Under the pieces are notes generated by a model. It had not been told where the DNA came from. It ran no database searches and was given only the letters and a program-made list of their open reading frames with translations. 64,000 nt of DNA. It comes from Verrucomicrobiota bacterium (GTDB lineage Bacteria > Verrucomicrobiota > Verrucomicrobiia > Verrucomicrobiales > DEV007). The DNA lies in NCBI GenBank assembly GCA_030625775.1, contig DAOUQC010000004.1:1-64000 (forward strand), written 5' to 3'. This document shows, piece by piece, positions 16,430 to 58,838 of this stretch (positions within the stretch are counted from its first letter, which is position 1; each line of letters opens with the position of its first letter). The position numbers were made by a program, and so were the translations under genes.

Positions 16430-17341
16430 ATGAAATTCTACTACTCATTCATCAAATTCATAACCCTGTGCTTGTTGCCAATCATCTGCTTGGCTTGCAG
16501 CCAGGATAAAAATCCAGAAGGGGAGGCAGCACAGCCGCCCAAACTATTCAAGGTTCATGGCATTATTCAGGAAATCAAGCCTGAGGATATGCGTATCATT
16601 ATTGATCATGAAGAAATCCCCGGCTACATGGGAGCAATGATCATGCCCTTCAATGTGAAGAAAAGCACGTCACTGTCAGGATTGGCCCCGGGAGATGGAA
16701 TTCACTTTGATTACCGGGTGGAGGAACTGCAGAGCTGGATTGAGAATATCAGCCTTACTGGCAACAAAGGAGCAATCAAAGCGCCAGGAGATGGGGGGCC
16801 GGTGGAAGCATCCAACAATGGATTGGCGATCAACTCACAACTTCCAGATTACCACTTCATTGATGAGAATGGAACGCCAGTCAAGCTGTCTGACTACCGG
16901 GGAGGCCCCGTTGCCCTGACTTTCGTTTTTACCCGTTGTCCGGTGCCTGAATATTGTCCCGCAATGATGCGGAAATTTTCCAAGGTAACAAAAACACTGG
17001 AGGCTGCACCAGATGCTCCTGCCTCCTGGACTTTATTGACGATTTCATTCGATGTAGATTATGATACGCCTGAAATTATGCGGACCTGGGGCAAGATTTT
17101 TGGATTTAAAAGTGGTCATTCATGGCACTTGCTGTCTTCGGAAAAGGACAGTGATACGATCAAAAAAATATCAGCGGATGTGGACTTGAAGTTTGGTGAG
17201 AACAAAGGCTCATACCAGCATAACCTCCGCACTGTGATTTTGGACGCAACAGGAAAAATAAGGCATGTATTCACTGATGAAACCTGGTCATCCGATGATC
17301 TGATAGCAAAGATGAAAGACGCCGCGGCACCACCGAAGTGA
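16430..17341 (+). CDS. Lipoprotein with CusF-like copper-binding domain fused to SCO1 domain
   Basis: A 303-residue protein. A lipoprotein signal ends in ICLAC. Residues about 40-112 form a CusF-like copper-binding domain (HGIIQEIKPEDMRI, HEEIPGYMGAMIMPF; Met-rich motif). Residues about 130-300 are an SCO1/SenC domain with FVFTRCPVPEYCP, where the two cysteines are separated by five residues, not three as in the neighbour at 15765-16403. The conserved His is in YQHNLRTVILD. The fusion suggests copper capture and delivery in one protein, probably to a cytochrome oxidase or similar copper enzyme (inference). Divergent from the other SCO gene. Confidence 0.92.
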   Translation: MKFYYSFIKFITLCLLPIICLACSQDKNPEGEAAQPPKLFKVHGIIQEIKPEDMRIIIDHEEIPGYMGAMIMPFNVKKSTSLSGLAPGDGIHFDYRVEELQSWIENISLTGNKGAIKAPGDGGPVEASNNGLAINSQLPDYHFIDENGTPVKLSDYRGGPVALTFVFTRCPVPEYCPAMMRKFSKVTKTLEAAPDAPASWTLLTISFDVDYDTPEIMRTWGKIFGFKSGHSWHLLSSEKDSDTIKKISADVDLKFGENKGSYQHNLRTVILDATGKIRHVFTDETWSSDDLIAKMKDAAAPPK

Positions 17342-17342
17342 G

Positions 17343-17987
17343 CTATAGGCATTCTTCAGGGGGGCAACCATGCCCCCTCCCCGTCTTTTCCATTCCCACG
17401 CTTTTGCCTTCCTTGCCGACATGTTGCATCAACTGTGGAAAAAACTCGGCAAAATCTGCTTCAAGGTTCTTATGCTGCTCTTTCAAAGAAGGCATGAAAT
17501 CCACCAGACGCCCAGCCTGCAGGGCCCGGTCGGAAAGTCTTGAATCAATCCGCCCGTAAGCCCACTCCACTTCGCCCAAATCACCGTAGCGTGCAAGCCG
17601 GTCACTCTTCACCATGCTCTGCACAAACTCGCTGGCCATCTCCGGAAACTGCTCACTCGCCCGTAACGCCTGCTTATAAAAGTTATCCAGAAACTCACGC
17701 ATGGGAACTTCTTCATAGGTCTGCCAATTCAGGGTCAGCAAATGATCATAAAATACGTCTACAACTATTCCTCGCAGGCGGGGATTGCCTTCCAATCTGG
17801 ATTTGCTTCGATCAACAATCGCATTTCTGTCAGTATAAAAATCAATTTCATGGTGACAGTTGATCCCGGATATGAAATCACCACTCATGCCCGGCCATCG
17901 CTGGCCTTTCAAAGCATCCGTCATCACGTTTCCCAGGCGAAACTCTGTGTTCGGTTCCGAAAGATACAAATGTGCCAGCCAGTTCAT
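17343..17987 (-). CDS. acpH: Acyl carrier protein phosphodiesterase family (DUF479)
   Basis: A 214-residue member of the AcpH/DUF479 family, which removes the phosphopantetheine group from acyl carrier protein in E. coli. The N terminus MNWLAHLYLS and the following RLGNVMTDALKG, GINCHHEIDFYTD and FYDHLLTLNW segments are typical and carry the HD-type His/Asp residues. It is longer than usual at the C terminus, with a Gly/Lys-rich tail. Its stop codon is 1 bp from the convergent CusF-SCO gene. The precise in vivo role in this lineage is not certain. Confidence 0.9.
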   Translation of the reverse strand: MNWLAHLYLSEPNTEFRLGNVMTDALKGQRWPGMSGDFISGINCHHEIDFYTDRNAIVDRSKSRLEGNPRLRGIVVDVFYDHLLTLNWQTYEEVPMREFLDNFYKQALRASEQFPEMASEFVQSMVKSDRLARYGDLGEVEWAYGRIDSRLSDRALQAGRLVDFMPSLKEQHKNLEADFAEFFPQLMQHVGKEGKSVGMEKTGRGHGCPPEECL

Positions 17988-51166: not shown

Positions 51167-51307
51167 TATCAATAACTGTTCATTTGTCCAGTGTAAAAAT
51201 GAATACTGTTAAAATTTACGCTTCTTTTTTTGCCCAAGACCTGTGCATAAGGGTTTCCATTCTTTAAAAAAATTTCCGTTATCGTCACAGAATACTCTTT
51301 AAAATGC

Positions 51308-52695: not shown

Positions 52696-53724
52696 TTGCT
52701 TTCTGACGACGAACATTTTATGAAGCTCGCCCTTAAACAGGCGAAAAAGGGCTTGGGTCAAACCAGTCCGAATCCTCCCGTGGGCGCTATTATTGTTTCT
52801 TCCAGAGGAAGCGTTCTTGGTAGCGGCTATCATCATCAGGCAGGACTGGCTCATGCGGAAATCGACGCCATTGACAAAACATTGGCCAATCACTCAGCCA
52901 GGCAGCTAAAAAACTCTACGCTTTATATCACTCTCGAGCCCTGCTCCACCTGCGGCAAAACCCCGGCGTGTACTGACAGCATTATCAAACACCAATTTGC
53001 CCGTGTGGTATACGGGTGTTCTGATCCCAATCCCGCCCACCGGGGCCGTGCAAAACAATTATTGAGCCGTGGAGGTATTGTAGTTACAAGCTGTATTTTG
53101 CATCAAGAATGCCAGGCGCTTATTCGTTATTTTACCAAAGCTGTCACTACTGGTCTGCCCTGGCTGATTGCCAAATCAGCCATGACCCTTGATGGTTGCA
53201 CCACTCTGCCTGCAGGGCAAGGACCATGGATTACTGGCAAGGAAGCTCTAAACGATGTGCAAAAGCTGCGCTCCCAGGTGGATGCTATTTTGATTGGTGG
53301 GGCAACTTTGCGGCAGGATGATCCCCTACTTACTCTAAGGGGCAATTATTCCAAAAAAACTCAGCGCCAGCCTTGGCGTGTCATTACTTCGCTATCCGGA
53401 GAGTTACCTGAAAAATCCCGGGTTTTCACTGATATCCATCGGGATCGTACTCAGGTTTACCTCAACAAATCATTGCGTCAGGTCCTCAAAAGCCTGGCAA
53501 AACAAGGCATACACTCTGTTTTATTGGAATCGGGCGGCAAACTTCTTGCTAATGCATTGAAAAACGATCTCGTGGACGAACTGGTCTTTTATTATGCGCC
53601 CCTGGTTGGCGGGGGTGATAAACATGCGGTTCAGTTGAACAATCTGAGCAAAGCCCTTTATGACATTAAAGGCAAAAAATTCGGTGCTGACCTGCGAATA
53701 AGAGGGCTTATCAAACGTTGTTGA
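52696..53724 (+). CDS. ribD: Bifunctional riboflavin deaminase/reductase
   Basis: A 342-residue RibD. The N-terminal deaminase zinc site is seen as HAEIDAI and LEPCSTCGKTPACTDSI, with TSPNPPVGAIIV before it. The C-terminal reductase domain begins at about 145 (LIAKSAMTLDGCTTLPAGQ) and includes LIGGATLRQDDPLLT and the NADPH site VLLESGGKLLANAL. It appears to start with TTG at 52696 (GGAA is upstream); the first ATG at 52720 would cut into the conserved N terminus. Catalyses the second and third steps of riboflavin synthesis. No FMN riboswitch was recognised. Confidence 0.93.
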   Translation: MLSDDEHFMKLALKQAKKGLGQTSPNPPVGAIIVSSRGSVLGSGYHHQAGLAHAEIDAIDKTLANHSARQLKNSTLYITLEPCSTCGKTPACTDSIIKHQFARVVYGCSDPNPAHRGRAKQLLSRGGIVVTSCILHQECQALIRYFTKAVTTGLPWLIAKSAMTLDGCTTLPAGQGPWITGKEALNDVQKLRSQVDAILIGGATLRQDDPLLTLRGNYSKKTQRQPWRVITSLSGELPEKSRVFTDIHRDRTQVYLNKSLRQVLKSLAKQGIHSVLLESGGKLLANALKNDLVDELVFYYAPLVGGGDKHAVQLNNLSKALYDIKGKKFGADLRIRGLIKRC

Positions 53725-54295: not shown

Positions 54296-56167
54296 CTATT
54301 TCTGCGACCTTTTCTGCCCCTTCTCCATCCAAACGGCCAGCAAAGCAATATCTGCTGGCGTGATACCGCTGACACGTCCGGCCTGTCCCAAGGTTGCCGG
54401 TCTGATCTCTTCCAGACGCTGCCGAGCCTCTACTTTTAATCCCCGCACTTCACTGTAATCCAATGACTTTGGAATCTCACGATTCTCAAGCTTTTTTGTG
54501 CGGCTGATCATTTGCTCCTGGCGCTTGATATAGCCGGCATATTTCACATCAATTTCTACCATTTCCCAGCTGCTTGATGGCAACTGTTTACGCAGATCTT
54601 CATCAATATCTAACCAGGAGACGTCCTGACGACGAAGCCATTTTTCTATCGCTGTTCCTTGAAAGTTATTTTTTGCAACAAAGGTCCTGGCCTCATCTAA
54701 GTTTTTTTGCAAACTGGCAGTTCGTTCTGCCCGCTCGCTGGTCACCAGTCCCCTTTCGGCTGCCTTCGGTGTAAGGCGCAGATCAGCATTGTCCTGACGC
54801 AGCAACAAGCGGTACTCTGCCCTGCTGGTAAACATCCTATAGGGTTCTATCGTACCTTTAGTTACCAAATCATCGATCATCACCCCGATGTAGGCTTCTT
54901 CCCGGCCTAAAACAAAGGCATTCTCTCCTTTCACCTTCAAGGCAGCATTCGCCCCGGCCATCAAACCCTGACCAGCTGCTTCTTCATAACCGCTGGTACC
55001 ATTGATCTGGCCTGCAAAATATAGTCCTTCTATTTTCTTGGTTTCCAGTGTCCGATTGAGTTGTGTCGGGTCACAAGCATCATATTCCACTGCGTAACCG
55101 GCTCTCAATATCTGTGCGTTTTCCAAACCGGCAATGGTTCTTATAAAGTCATACTGAATTTCATAAGGCAAGCTAGTTGAGATACCATTGATATAGAATT
55201 CCTGTGTGTGACGACCTTCCGGTTCAAGGAAAAGCTGATGCCTTTCTTTATCAGCAAACCTCACCACCTTGTCTTCAATGGACGGGCAATATCGAGGCCC
55301 AACGCCTTCTATTATACCAGAATACATGGGCGATTGATCCAGTCCACCACGGATCACATCGTGTGTTTTTGCATTGGTGTGAGTGATCCAACACGGTAAT
55401 TGTTCCATGTGGAACAATTTATCAGCCCAGGGGTTCAGTGTGAAAATATCATCTTTTTCCTTTGTGATCGTATCAGACATAAAGGAAAACTTCGGTATAT
55501 CAGCATCCCCTTCCTGCTTCTCACACTTGCTAAAATCAATCGTACGACCATTAACCCGGCAAGGCGTTCCAGTTTTCATCCTTTCAATCACAAATCCTAG
55601 TTTTGCCAGAATGTCACTGAGCGTCGACATCGCATCCCCCATCCTGCCCCCCTTTTGATTCTGCATGCCCACGTGCAGTAAACCCCGCATAAACGTCCCT
55701 GTGGTAATCACGACAGATCTAGCCGAGTATCTCATTCCCAGACTGGTTTCTATACCTGCTATCTGATCATTTTTTACGATTAAATCGACCACGTTACCCT
55801 GATGCAAATCCAAATTAGGCTCGTTTTCCAAAGTGACTTTTAACCTCGATTGGTAGGCTTTTTTATCACACTGCGCTCTTGGAGCTCTAACACTAGGCCC
55901 CTTCTTTCGATTCAATAGTCTAAACTGGATACCGGTCGCATCGGTATTCAGTCCCATCTCCCCCCCTAAAGCGTCTATTTCACGAACTATGTGACCTTTT
56001 GCCAAACCCCCAATAGCTGGGTTGCACGACATCTGACCAATCGTATCCAGATTCTGAGTGAGCATCGCTACTTGGCAACCCAGCCGGGTAGCTGCTAATG
56101 CAGCTTCAATACCAGCATGGCCAGCACCAATGATGAGAACATCATAAATTTTTGGATAGCTATACAT
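54296..56167 (-). CDS. mnmG: tRNA uridine-5-carboxymethylaminomethyl modification enzyme MnmG (GidA)
   Basis: FAD-dependent partner of MnmE that modifies U34 of several tRNAs; 623 residues. FAD-binding motif VLIIGAGHAGIEAALAA, then TQNLDTIGQMSCNPAIGGLAKGHIVREIDALGGEMG, the NADH region, and NGTSGYEEAAGQGLMAGANAAL. The C-terminal domain ends with ARVSGITPADIALLAVWME-type sequence. A parS-like site lies inside it (55401-55416) and another upstream (56296-56311). mnmG is often close to the chromosome origin. Confidence 0.98.
   Translation of the reverse strand: MYSYPKIYDVLIIGAGHAGIEAALAATRLGCQVAMLTQNLDTIGQMSCNPAIGGLAKGHIVREIDALGGEMGLNTDATGIQFRLLNRKKGPSVRAPRAQCDKKAYQSRLKVTLENEPNLDLHQGNVVDLIVKNDQIAGIETSLGMRYSARSVVITTGTFMRGLLHVGMQNQKGGRMGDAMSTLSDILAKLGFVIERMKTGTPCRVNGRTIDFSKCEKQEGDADIPKFSFMSDTITKEKDDIFTLNPWADKLFHMEQLPCWITHTNAKTHDVIRGGLDQSPMYSGIIEGVGPRYCPSIEDKVVRFADKERHQLFLEPEGRHTQEFYINGISTSLPYEIQYDFIRTIAGLENAQILRAGYAVEYDACDPTQLNRTLETKKIEGLYFAGQINGTSGYEEAAGQGLMAGANAALKVKGENAFVLGREEAYIGVMIDDLVTKGTIEPYRMFTSRAEYRLLLRQDNADLRLTPKAAERGLVTSERAERTASLQKNLDEARTFVAKNNFQGTAIEKWLRRQDVSWLDIDEDLRKQLPSSSWEMVEIDVKYAGYIKRQEQMISRTKKLENREIPKSLDYSEVRGLKVEARQRLEEIRPATLGQAGRVSGITPADIALLAVWMEKGQKRSQK
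55401..55416. promoter_or_regulatory. parS-like site within mnmG
   Basis: TGTTCCATGTGGAACA, 13 of 16 matches to the bacterial parS consensus TGTTTCACGTGAAACA. The centre differs from a perfect palindrome by one base. It lies within coding sequence, as many ParB sites do. Confidence 0.5.
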
Positions 56168-56295: not shown

Positions 56296-56311
56296 TGTTC
56301 CACGTGGAACG
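56296..56311. promoter_or_regulatory. parS-like site upstream of mnmG
   Basis: TGTTCCACGTGGAACG, containing a perfect 14-bp palindrome GTTCCACGTGGAAC (56297-56310) and matching parS at 13 of 16 positions. It is close to parS variants of Pseudomonas. Located between mnmG (start 56167) and the sulfatase (end 56319). Confidence 0.65.
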
Positions 56312-56318
56312 CCATGCT

Positions 56319-57710
56319 TCATCCTTGTTCGAGCATCAATGTTTGTTTACTCAAAAAAATGGCTACCAGCTCTTTCACCACAGTTTTTTCCTGCTCAGCA
56401 AGATTATTACTTTCACTGATATCAACAGACAAATCATATAACTGCCACGCTTGGTTTTTTGAGGTTCGAACAATCTTCCACTTTCCTTTTCTCAATGCCG
56501 CATGTTTTCCATACTCAAAGTAAAACTCTCTGTGGGGTGATTTATTAGTTTTCCCCGTCAATACCGGAAGCATATTCCGCCCATCCAAAATCCGATCCTT
56601 GGGTAAAGCAGCACCACTGATTTCTGCAGTAGTTACCAATAAATCAGGTGACCACAAGGGAACATCTATCACCGAATTCTTTTTAATTTTTCCCGGCCAA
56701 CGTGCAAAGGCCACCACCCTCAAGCCCCCTTCCCAACAGGTCACTCCCCCACTGCGCAAGGGCGCATTCGTAGAAATATCCAAACCCTTTCGATTCAACA
56801 TAAAAGTTCCATTATCGGAATACAGAAAAACGAAGGTATTCTCGGTCACAGCAAGTCGATCCAAAGACTTAAACACACGTCCTATCGCCTGGTCCAGGGC
56901 GGTGACCACAGCCCTATAGCGTTTTTCCGGATCCTCTTCATCGGATGACATACCATACTCTTTAAAAGCCCAGTCTGGTGCCTGCCAATTTGTGATCTGA
57001 CCTGGAGCTTTATTGCCCTTGTTAGGAAAATGAGGTGAATTGAAGGGCAAATAGACAAACCACGGTGTTTGGTTTTTTGTTTTTGTCTCGATAAAATGAA
57101 TCGCTGAATCGGCAAATAAATCCGTGCTATATTGTCCATCACGATCAATTTCTTCTGTATTGTGAAACAAATCGTGTTTGCCATTATAAACGTGGTGGTA
57201 ATAATCAATATTACCCGAAGCAAAACCCAGAAATTCATCAAATCCTCGTTCAGTAGGTCTTGATCCGGGAGCAAAGCCAATATTCCATTTTCCAAAAGCT
57301 CCTGTTGCATAAGCAGATGGGCTGGACTTCACCACTGCAGGGATCAAAATCTCCGAATGTCTCAAGCCTATTCCAAAGTTACCTTTGATTCCACCCAACT
57401 GGTTTGTCAGTTGATGTCTTTGTGAAATTCGTCCACTCATCAAACAAGCACGTGATACCGTGCAGGTAGGTGATGCCGTATAGAAACTGGTTAATCGAGC
57501 ACTTTGGGTCGCGAAGAGGTCAAGATTGGGAGTTTTAATGAGACTTTTAGAATTGTAGCTTTTTAAATCAGCATAACCAAGATTGTCGACTGTAATGATC
57601 AAAATGTTTGCAGCTTGATCTGCAGCCCATCCTCTTATAGAAAACAAGGCTATAAAAAGTAACAATGATGTTGTGAAGTTTTTTATGTGGGAGTTTATAT
57701 TTGTGTGCAT
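56319..57710 (-). CDS. Exported sulfatase-family protein with altered active site
   Basis: A 463-residue arylsulfatase-like protein with a signal peptide (after MHTNINSHIKNF). It retains LIITVDNLGYADL, SPTCTVSRACLMSGR, GKWNIG, LPFNSPHFP, YSDNG and LRSGGVTCWEGGLRV. Compared with standard sulfatases, the second Asp of the metal pair is Asn (DN rather than DD), the formylglycine motif is CTVSR in place of CxPSR, GKWHLG is GKWNIG, and the Lys expected after RGG is absent. The Cys, the motif Arg, the Lys of GKW, the PH His and the DN pair remain. The enzyme may be inactive or have a changed reaction. ATG at 57710. Confidence 0.88.
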   Translation of the reverse strand: MHTNINSHIKNFTTSLLLFIALFSIRGWAADQAANILIITVDNLGYADLKSYNSKSLIKTPNLDLFATQSARLTSFYTASPTCTVSRACLMSGRISQRHQLTNQLGGIKGNFGIGLRHSEILIPAVVKSSPSAYATGAFGKWNIGFAPGSRPTERGFDEFLGFASGNIDYYHHVYNGKHDLFHNTEEIDRDGQYSTDLFADSAIHFIETKTKNQTPWFVYLPFNSPHFPNKGNKAPGQITNWQAPDWAFKEYGMSSDEEDPEKRYRAVVTALDQAIGRVFKSLDRLAVTENTFVFLYSDNGTFMLNRKGLDISTNAPLRSGGVTCWEGGLRVVAFARWPGKIKKNSVIDVPLWSPDLLVTTAEISGAALPKDRILDGRNMLPVLTGKTNKSPHREFYFEYGKHAALRKGKWKIVRTSKNQAWQLYDLSVDISESNNLAEQEKTVVKELVAIFLSKQTLMLEQG

Positions 57711-57979
57711 CTTGCCAAGTCTATATTTTAGGAAATTTCTCAAATTTGAATTACATAAATACATATTTAAGAAGAATTATTTATTTCAAAATTAATTATC
57801 CGTATTATAGCGGTGAATGACTTAACAATAGCCTCATACCTCGTTAATAGTCAATCAGTTGCTATTGTAAATGAACTGTGAATAAGGTGCGAATCAATGC
57901 TGATAAAACCTTAAATTTGAGAATAAGTGAGAATTGTGCCCTCTTATTCAAAGAATGACACAAGTTGTTCACAGTTTAA
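57711..57979. other. AT-rich intergenic region, candidate replication origin
   Basis: The 269-bp gap between sulfatase and rnc is AT-rich from 57721 to about 57870. It contains TTATTCACA (rc of 57877-57885), one mismatch from the DnaA box TTATCCACA, and at least four two-mismatch words: TTATCCGTA (about 57796), TTATTCTCA (rc, about 57919), TTATTCAAA (57944) and TTGTTCACA (57965). No gene. G/C strand bias appears to change near here. This is inference, not proof. Confidence 0.4.
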
Positions 57980-58681
57980 TCAAGGGTCTTTCTCATTTTC
58001 GTTCCAGAGCTCATCGTCCAGAGCTTGGGTGGCTGCTTCAAATTCAGCTTCTTTTTTGCTGTACCCCCTACCGCAGCCGAGCAACTTGCCACTCCATTCA
58101 ACACAAACTTCGAAAATTTTAGCGTGATCGGGGCCCTCCTGCTGTAGAATTCGGTATTGCGGGCTGCTTGAAGAGATGGCCTGCAACAATTCCTGCAAAC
58201 GTCCTTTGGGGTTGGCTTCATCAGGTTCATGAGCCGCTTCGTCAATAGCCGACACACATTGTGAAAGCACAAATGTTCTGGTGGCCTCAATACCTCCATC
58301 AAGGTAAATAGCTCCAATCAGAGCTTCATAAGCATCGGCGAGATTGGATACGCGTTCTTTGCCACCGGACGATTCTTCGCCCTTACCGAGCAGAAGAAAG
58401 TTAAAAAGTTTGATTTGCCGGGCAAATTTCCACAGAGCATCGCGTGATACCAAGCGGGAGCGCACTTTAGTGAGACGTCCTTCTCCAAAGGCGGGATATG
58501 CTTGATAGAGTTCATCAGTGAGTATGAGTTGAAGCACCGCATCACCGAGGTATTCGAGCCGCTGATTATCAAAATGTGGCCGCTGGGTTTCGTAAGCCAG
58601 ACTCGGATGGGTCATCGCTTCTGCCAATAATAAGGAATTGGCAAACTTGTATCCGATGATTTTTTCTAAAGATTCAGGCAT
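57980..58681 (-). CDS. rnc: Ribonuclease III
   Basis: Double-stranded RNA endonuclease of 233 residues. The RNase III signature is NQRLEYLGDAVLQL near residue 39, with DAYEALIGAIYLDGG as the second catalytic helix. A C-terminal dsRNA-binding domain follows (NPKGRLQELLQA, GPDHAKIFEVCVEWSGK, GYSKKEAEFEAATQAL). Normal length. Its stop codon is next to the AT-rich region and tRNA-His lies 80 bp upstream on the same strand. Confidence 0.97.
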   Translation of the reverse strand: MPESLEKIIGYKFANSLLLAEAMTHPSLAYETQRPHFDNQRLEYLGDAVLQLILTDELYQAYPAFGEGRLTKVRSRLVSRDALWKFARQIKLFNFLLLGKGEESSGGKERVSNLADAYEALIGAIYLDGGIEATRTFVLSQCVSAIDEAAHEPDEANPKGRLQELLQAISSSSPQYRILQQEGPDHAKIFEVCVEWSGKLLGCGRGYSKKEAEFEAATQALDDELWNENEKDP

Positions 58682-58761: not shown

Positions 58762-58838
58762 TGGGGTGGATGACGGGACTCGAACCCGCGACAACCGGAA
58801 TCACAATCCGGGGCTCTACCAACTGAGCTACAACCACC
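58762..58838 (-). tRNA. tRNA-His (GTG anticodon)
   Basis: The cloverleaf can be folded on the minus strand. The anticodon loop is TTGTGAT flanked by a CCGGA/TCCGG stem, giving anticodon GTG. The T-loop TTCGAGT is in CGCGGGTTCGAGTCCCG, the D-loop in AGCTCAGTTGGTAGAGC, and CCA is encoded at the 3' end. The extra G at position -1 (opposite the C discriminator) is present, as expected for tRNA-His. One T-T mismatch lies in the acceptor stem. Confidence 0.97.

Follow-up and report, generated by a model that had tools for sequence, protein, structure and literature searches.

A probable chromosome replication origin between sulfatase and rnc genes in a Verrucomicrobiales bacterium, and a tentative origin plan for its order

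Where replication of the chromosome begins in this uncultured bacterium of the order Verrucomicrobiales is the question raised by a short gap between a sulfatase gene and rnc, for which the first-pass annotation had proposed the role of oriC. The gap was analysed within a stretch of 64 kb (the window), which belongs to a 112-kb contig of a draft genome of 158 contigs (4.88 Mb, 96% complete). The proposal is supported by GC skew, by DnaA boxes conserved at fixed spacing and by the lack of a rival oriC at dnaA, and the gap is very probably the single bidirectional origin of the chromosome.

DnaA boxes and AT-rich DNA in the gap

The gap, its flanking genes and its elements are listed below in window coordinates.

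57980-58681, minus strand: rnc (ribonuclease III; TIGR02191, E 1.6e-68), the 3' end of which borders the putative oriC in the window's family
57712-57979, no strand: intergenic gap between the sulfatase gene and rnc, putative oriC (conserved downstream of rnc, with a box cluster, the least stable DNA and a reversal of skew)
57965-57973, plus strand: DnaA box TTGTTCACA, an exact variant of the conserved box; same word near the rnc end in the same-genus sister genome G002
57944-57952, plus strand: weak DnaA box TTATTCAAA, one mismatch
57918-57926, minus strand: DnaA box TTATTCTCA, one mismatch, 41 bp from box A with identical spacing in G002
57888-57896, minus strand: weak box TGATTCGCA in tandem with box A, at a distance of 2 bp; its G002 counterpart by sequence comparison is TGATTCTCA
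57877-57885, minus strand: DnaA box A TTATTCACA, the order-wide box word, one mismatch to TTATCCACA, exactly 65 bp from box B
57812-57820, minus strand: DnaA box B TCATTCACC, which opens the conserved putative unwinding module; it differs from TTATCCACA/TTATTCACA at two positions and is matched by a model built without its own genus
57768-57811, minus strand: conserved AT-rich element CTATAATA...AATTCTTCTTA, the putative DNA unwinding element (alignment; top match of the leave-out model R2 in its own genome)
57747-57755, minus strand: position of box C, intact in many relatives, decayed here (TGTAATTCA, at least three mismatches)
57709-57808, no strand: 100-bp stretch with the lowest stability in the window, the predicted site of first strand opening (nearest-neighbour stability scan)
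56319-57711, minus strand: sulfatase, the other flank of the putative oriC (TIGR03417 and arylsulfatase models)

An ATG at 57764 is also readable as the start of the sulfatase, but the signal-peptide start at 57711, as assumed in the first-pass annotation, is more likely. A tRNA-His gene (gtg; 58762-58837, minus strand) lies just upstream of rnc.

All of the box-like words reported earlier are present, including box A with its single mismatch. Exact matches to TTRTYCACA number 2, where 0.02 are expected (a count reached by none of 3000 shuffles of the gap), and words with at most one mismatch number 4 against 0.52 (P 0.0013). Words with at most two mismatches number 10, where shuffles give 5.3 (P 0.03). 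In the whole 64-kb window, one-mismatch words occur at chance level (46 found, 45 expected), so that only their clustering and conservation are informative. The gap is the sole place in the window with four such words in 150 bp, and this intergenic box cluster is conserved in relatives. The window-wide abundance of one-mismatch words is what would favour a chance origin of the boxes in an AT-rich gap, with the skew switch described below arising from a local inversion or an assembly join. This explanation is extremely improbable, since shuffles of the gap rarely match the observed counts, the conservation of the boxes across the order and their fixed spacing contradict it, and the same skew switch is found in G002 and in closed genomes.

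The cluster had also been described as flanked on one side by an AT-rich segment, and the stability scan agrees: the 100-bp stretch of lowest stability in the window starts at 57709 and adjoins the boxes. A putative oriC in this gap would therefore have an AT-rich element beside its boxes that is predicted to melt easily. In both species of the genus (window 57712-57979; G002, contig C41, 51036-51260), box C is decayed while the element is otherwise symmetric, and the extra box TTATTCTCA stands before box A.

Skew, dnaA and parS in relation to the gap

The first-pass annotation expected the minimum of the cumulative GC skew at 57.7-58 kb; on the whole 112-kb contig it falls at 57,451, with a bootstrapped change point at 58-60 kb. 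Gene orientation reverses at the same place, 29 of the 43 genes to the left being on the minus strand (14 plus) and 24 of the 34 to the right on the plus strand (10 minus). In G002 the minimum (51,556) and the homologous element (51,197-51,251) are no more than 400 bp apart. Local minima are found 2-11 kb from the element in G020, G005 and G019, and the skew of G013 is weak or unclear. A replication terminus would also show a change of skew sign; here, however, the sign turns from negative to positive on the plus strand, as at origins, and parS sites together with the outward gene bias fit an origin, leaving a terminus exceedingly unlikely.

Adjacency to dnaA is common in origins of the DnaA type, but it is not required and hence does not define them. 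The statement that no dnaA lies nearby holds, as the gene is on another contig (C74), encoding the one DnaA above the cut-off in the genome; in this genome the gap is not adjacent to it. A clear oriC next to dnaA had been named as an observation that would speak against the gap. Contig C74 carries a single weak box and no box cluster near dnaA. Closed records are usually rotated to dnaA, which stands at position ~1 in the four complete genomes examined from the order (G040, G043, G047 and G055). Their skew, computed on sampled stretches, shows no switch at dnaA. The homologous element instead lies 50-400 bp from the skew minimum, with dnaA far away, as listed here.

G040: skew minimum 497,358, element 497,132
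G043: skew minimum 1,238,408, element 1,238,014
G047: skew minimum 972,995, element 973,043
G055: skew minimum 1,111,535, element 1,111,179

A location of the origin beside dnaA was rejected on the basis of the lone weak box of C74 and the remote skew minima of these four genomes. In G040 the origin unit, comprising AT-rich element and boxes, looks tandemly duplicated at the skew minimum (C1:497,130-497,870; L060 ~17,130-17,870), the copies being ~510 bp apart.

Two parS-like sites and mnmG had been placed near the gap, and all three were recovered.

56297-56310, no strand: putative parS palindrome GTTCCACGTGGAAC, the sole exact copy in the 4.88-Mb draft genome, 1.4 kb from the gap
55402-55415, no strand: second parS-like palindrome, inside mnmG, one mismatch
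54296-56167, minus strand: mnmG (gidA), an origin-linked gene (TIGR00136, E 4e-245)

The palindromes are 1.4-2.3 kb from the gap and a ParB gene is found on contig C126, so the site at 56297-56310 has the position and the partner predicted for a parS of the ParABS system. In most relatives parS adjoins mnmG or sits inside it, and in the four complete genomes mnmG and parS are ~1-14 kb from the skew minima. In most genomes of the order the palindromes are located either within the coding sequence of mnmG or where it begins, often paired ~780-930 bp apart; G020 has seven exact copies in 3 kb at mnmG (C138:69,665-72,609), compared with one or two in most relatives. A reading frame after the origin of the Akkermansia-like G043 (C1, ~1,238,085) resembles ribD, and the ribD of the window (52696-53724) is likewise near mnmG, which suggests an old ribD-mnmG-oriC neighbourhood.

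Arrangement of the boxes in relatives

Comparison of the gap among related genomes had been recommended as a check, and it revealed boxes kept at fixed spacing downstream of rnc. RNase III homologues with their flanks were taken from 80 Verrucomicrobial records. At 79 loci, exact TTATTCACA/TTGTTCACA boxes number 29 in the first 250-bp bin downstream of rnc and 0-5 in every other bin, the signal coming mainly from the closest relatives. No exact boxes were found at the rnc end in Haloferula, Rubritalea, Luteolibacter and Persicirhabdus, so the origin in these four genera is probably not beside rnc. In Akkermansia-like genomes, boxes and element are near mnmG and away from rnc.

The common plan consists of box A, a co-oriented box B 65 bp on, and an AT-rich element that bears (TAA/GAA) triplets; an inward-facing box C often follows. 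After box B come C(C)TATAA(TAA)GAAGAA, ~30 bp of AT-rich DNA and TTCTTCTA, and box C, where present, is 60-63 bp from B. Boxes of the same orientation at exactly 65 bp occur at 10 of 48 rnc loci besides the window; at 64-66 bp there are 12 such pairs at these loci versus a single pair in 754 kb of control sequence. Inward-facing pairs at 60-63 bp number 14 at the 48 loci, versus 2 at 58-65 bp in the 754 kb. In the window the distance from A (57885) to B (57820) is exactly 65 bp, and the AT-rich element is kept while box C has decayed.

Model R1, which describes the B-to-C element by sequence only and whose training set included the window and the sister genome, was run on 57 whole genomes. Matches at E<=1e-3 were obtained in 19 of them, 10 of which were not in the training set, and all matches are near rnc or mnmG: at most ~350 bp downstream of rnc in 16 genomes and ~2.2 kb from mnmG in the other three (G019, G026 and G032). 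Strong matches often appear on both strands at one place because the element has two-fold symmetry. Since R1 contains the window, a second model (R2) was built without the window's genus. It ranks the site in the window first in its own 4.88-Mb genome, with a modest score (E 0.03, versus 0.2 for the next match), and gives E 5e-4 within the 64-kb window. Together with the single exact parS of the 96%-complete draft, this top rank indicates one such site per chromosome. R2 likewise recovers the element in G040, where it lies at the skew minimum, and gives weak matches in G042, G037 and G043.

These comparisons bear on another reading of the boxes, as a DnaA-controlled promoter or regulatory region, for example of the sulfatase, with the true origin in a different gap within a few kb, such as the parS/mnmG start. 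DnaA is also a transcription factor, and a skew minimum alone cannot tell apart gaps a few hundred bp from each other. However, many genomes keep the boxes downstream of rnc, and in the Akkermansia-like ones the boxes accompany mnmG, away from rnc. In G005 and G020, whose rnc and mnmG are separated by 14-28 kb, the skew minimum is nearer to rnc, and a comparable box cluster is absent from all other gaps of the window. A purely regulatory role is accordingly very unlikely, and the gap reads as an ordinary DnaA-type oriC set apart from dnaA.

Relation to known origins and biological meaning

In an oriC of this type, extrapolating from established DnaA and ParABS biology, ATP-DnaA produced from dnaA elsewhere on the chromosome would bind the box array (TTGTTCACA, TTATTCTCA, box A TTATTCACA and box B TCATTCACC) and oligomerise from box B onto the adjoining AT-rich DNA (57709-57811). 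DnaA would melt this element, DnaB would then be loaded, and two forks would depart from the gap in opposite directions; ParB bound to the nearby parS palindromes would then separate the sister origins.

The oriC of Escherichia coli has DnaA boxes beside an AT-rich unwinding element and is near mnmG and away from dnaA. The gap resembles it in the combination of boxes and AT-rich element, in having mnmG nearby and in its distance from dnaA, but it differs in its flanks (rnc and sulfatase) and in its main box word TTATTCACA. A further difference is the fixed A-65-B-60-C array of the window's family, in which the box beyond the AT-rich element faces inwards. In Yersinia pestis and E. coli, oriC is located between gidA and mioC (PMC10225481).

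Another known arrangement is the basal unwinding system (BUS), which is composed of a DnaA box, a spacer and DnaA-trios (PMC6669920, PMC8287927). The likeness is that in both a DnaA box immediately adjoins AT-rich DNA with repeated triplets, but relative to the nearest box the (TAA/GAA) runs of the window read the opposite way to the 3'-GAT-5' trios, as derived from the published orientation. Under a rule demanding at least three 3'-NAN-5' trios no more than 16 bp from a box with at most two mismatches, only box B of the window fits, with a spacer of 16, the longest that the rule permits, and no more than the three trios required. AT-rich DNA readily gives marginal matches of this kind. Given the opposite triplets, the element is not assigned to the canonical BUS, the support for which goes no further than this match.

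The origins of Akkermansia muciniphila YL44 and 11 other gut strains (OMM12) have been located from GC skew and parS, and read coverage supports the positions in all 12; origin and dnaA do not systematically coincide (PMC10197239). A. muciniphila belongs to the same phylum as the genome studied here and its origin is likewise tied to skew and parS (PMC10197239), so the existence in this phylum of an origin that is close to parS but separate from dnaA is not new. That work gave a kb-scale position, without boxes, an unwinding element or a conserved module (PMC10197239). In the Akkermansia-like genomes of the present analysis the element is near mnmG, whereas in the window it is beside rnc. No description of a Verrucomicrobial oriC sequence or of the A-B-(C) architecture was found in the literature searched, in which the architecture appears to be undescribed; DoriC may list predicted origins for some species.

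We tentatively propose, at a little short of even confidence, that the Verrucomicrobiales share a distinct oriC plan, in which two co-oriented DnaA boxes exactly 65 bp apart are followed by an AT-rich (TAA/GAA) putative unwinding element and by an inward-facing box 60-63 bp on. The plan would stay constant while its neighbours change (rnc in the window's family, mnmG elsewhere), and the window's genus would be a natural one-sided variant, with one side decayed. If this is true, DnaA could act from both sides of the two-sided plan, either opening the duplex or guiding the loading of the helicase. The symmetric arrangement of boxes offers a natural test of duplex opening by DnaA. The analysis also provides base-pair coordinates of the probable origin and a usable search model for a bacterial order that includes Akkermansia-like gut species and in which closed genomes are by convention made to start at dnaA, far from where replication truly begins. 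Knowledge of the true origin matters for growth-rate estimates from metagenome coverage, for mini-chromosome vectors and for studies of the cell cycle.
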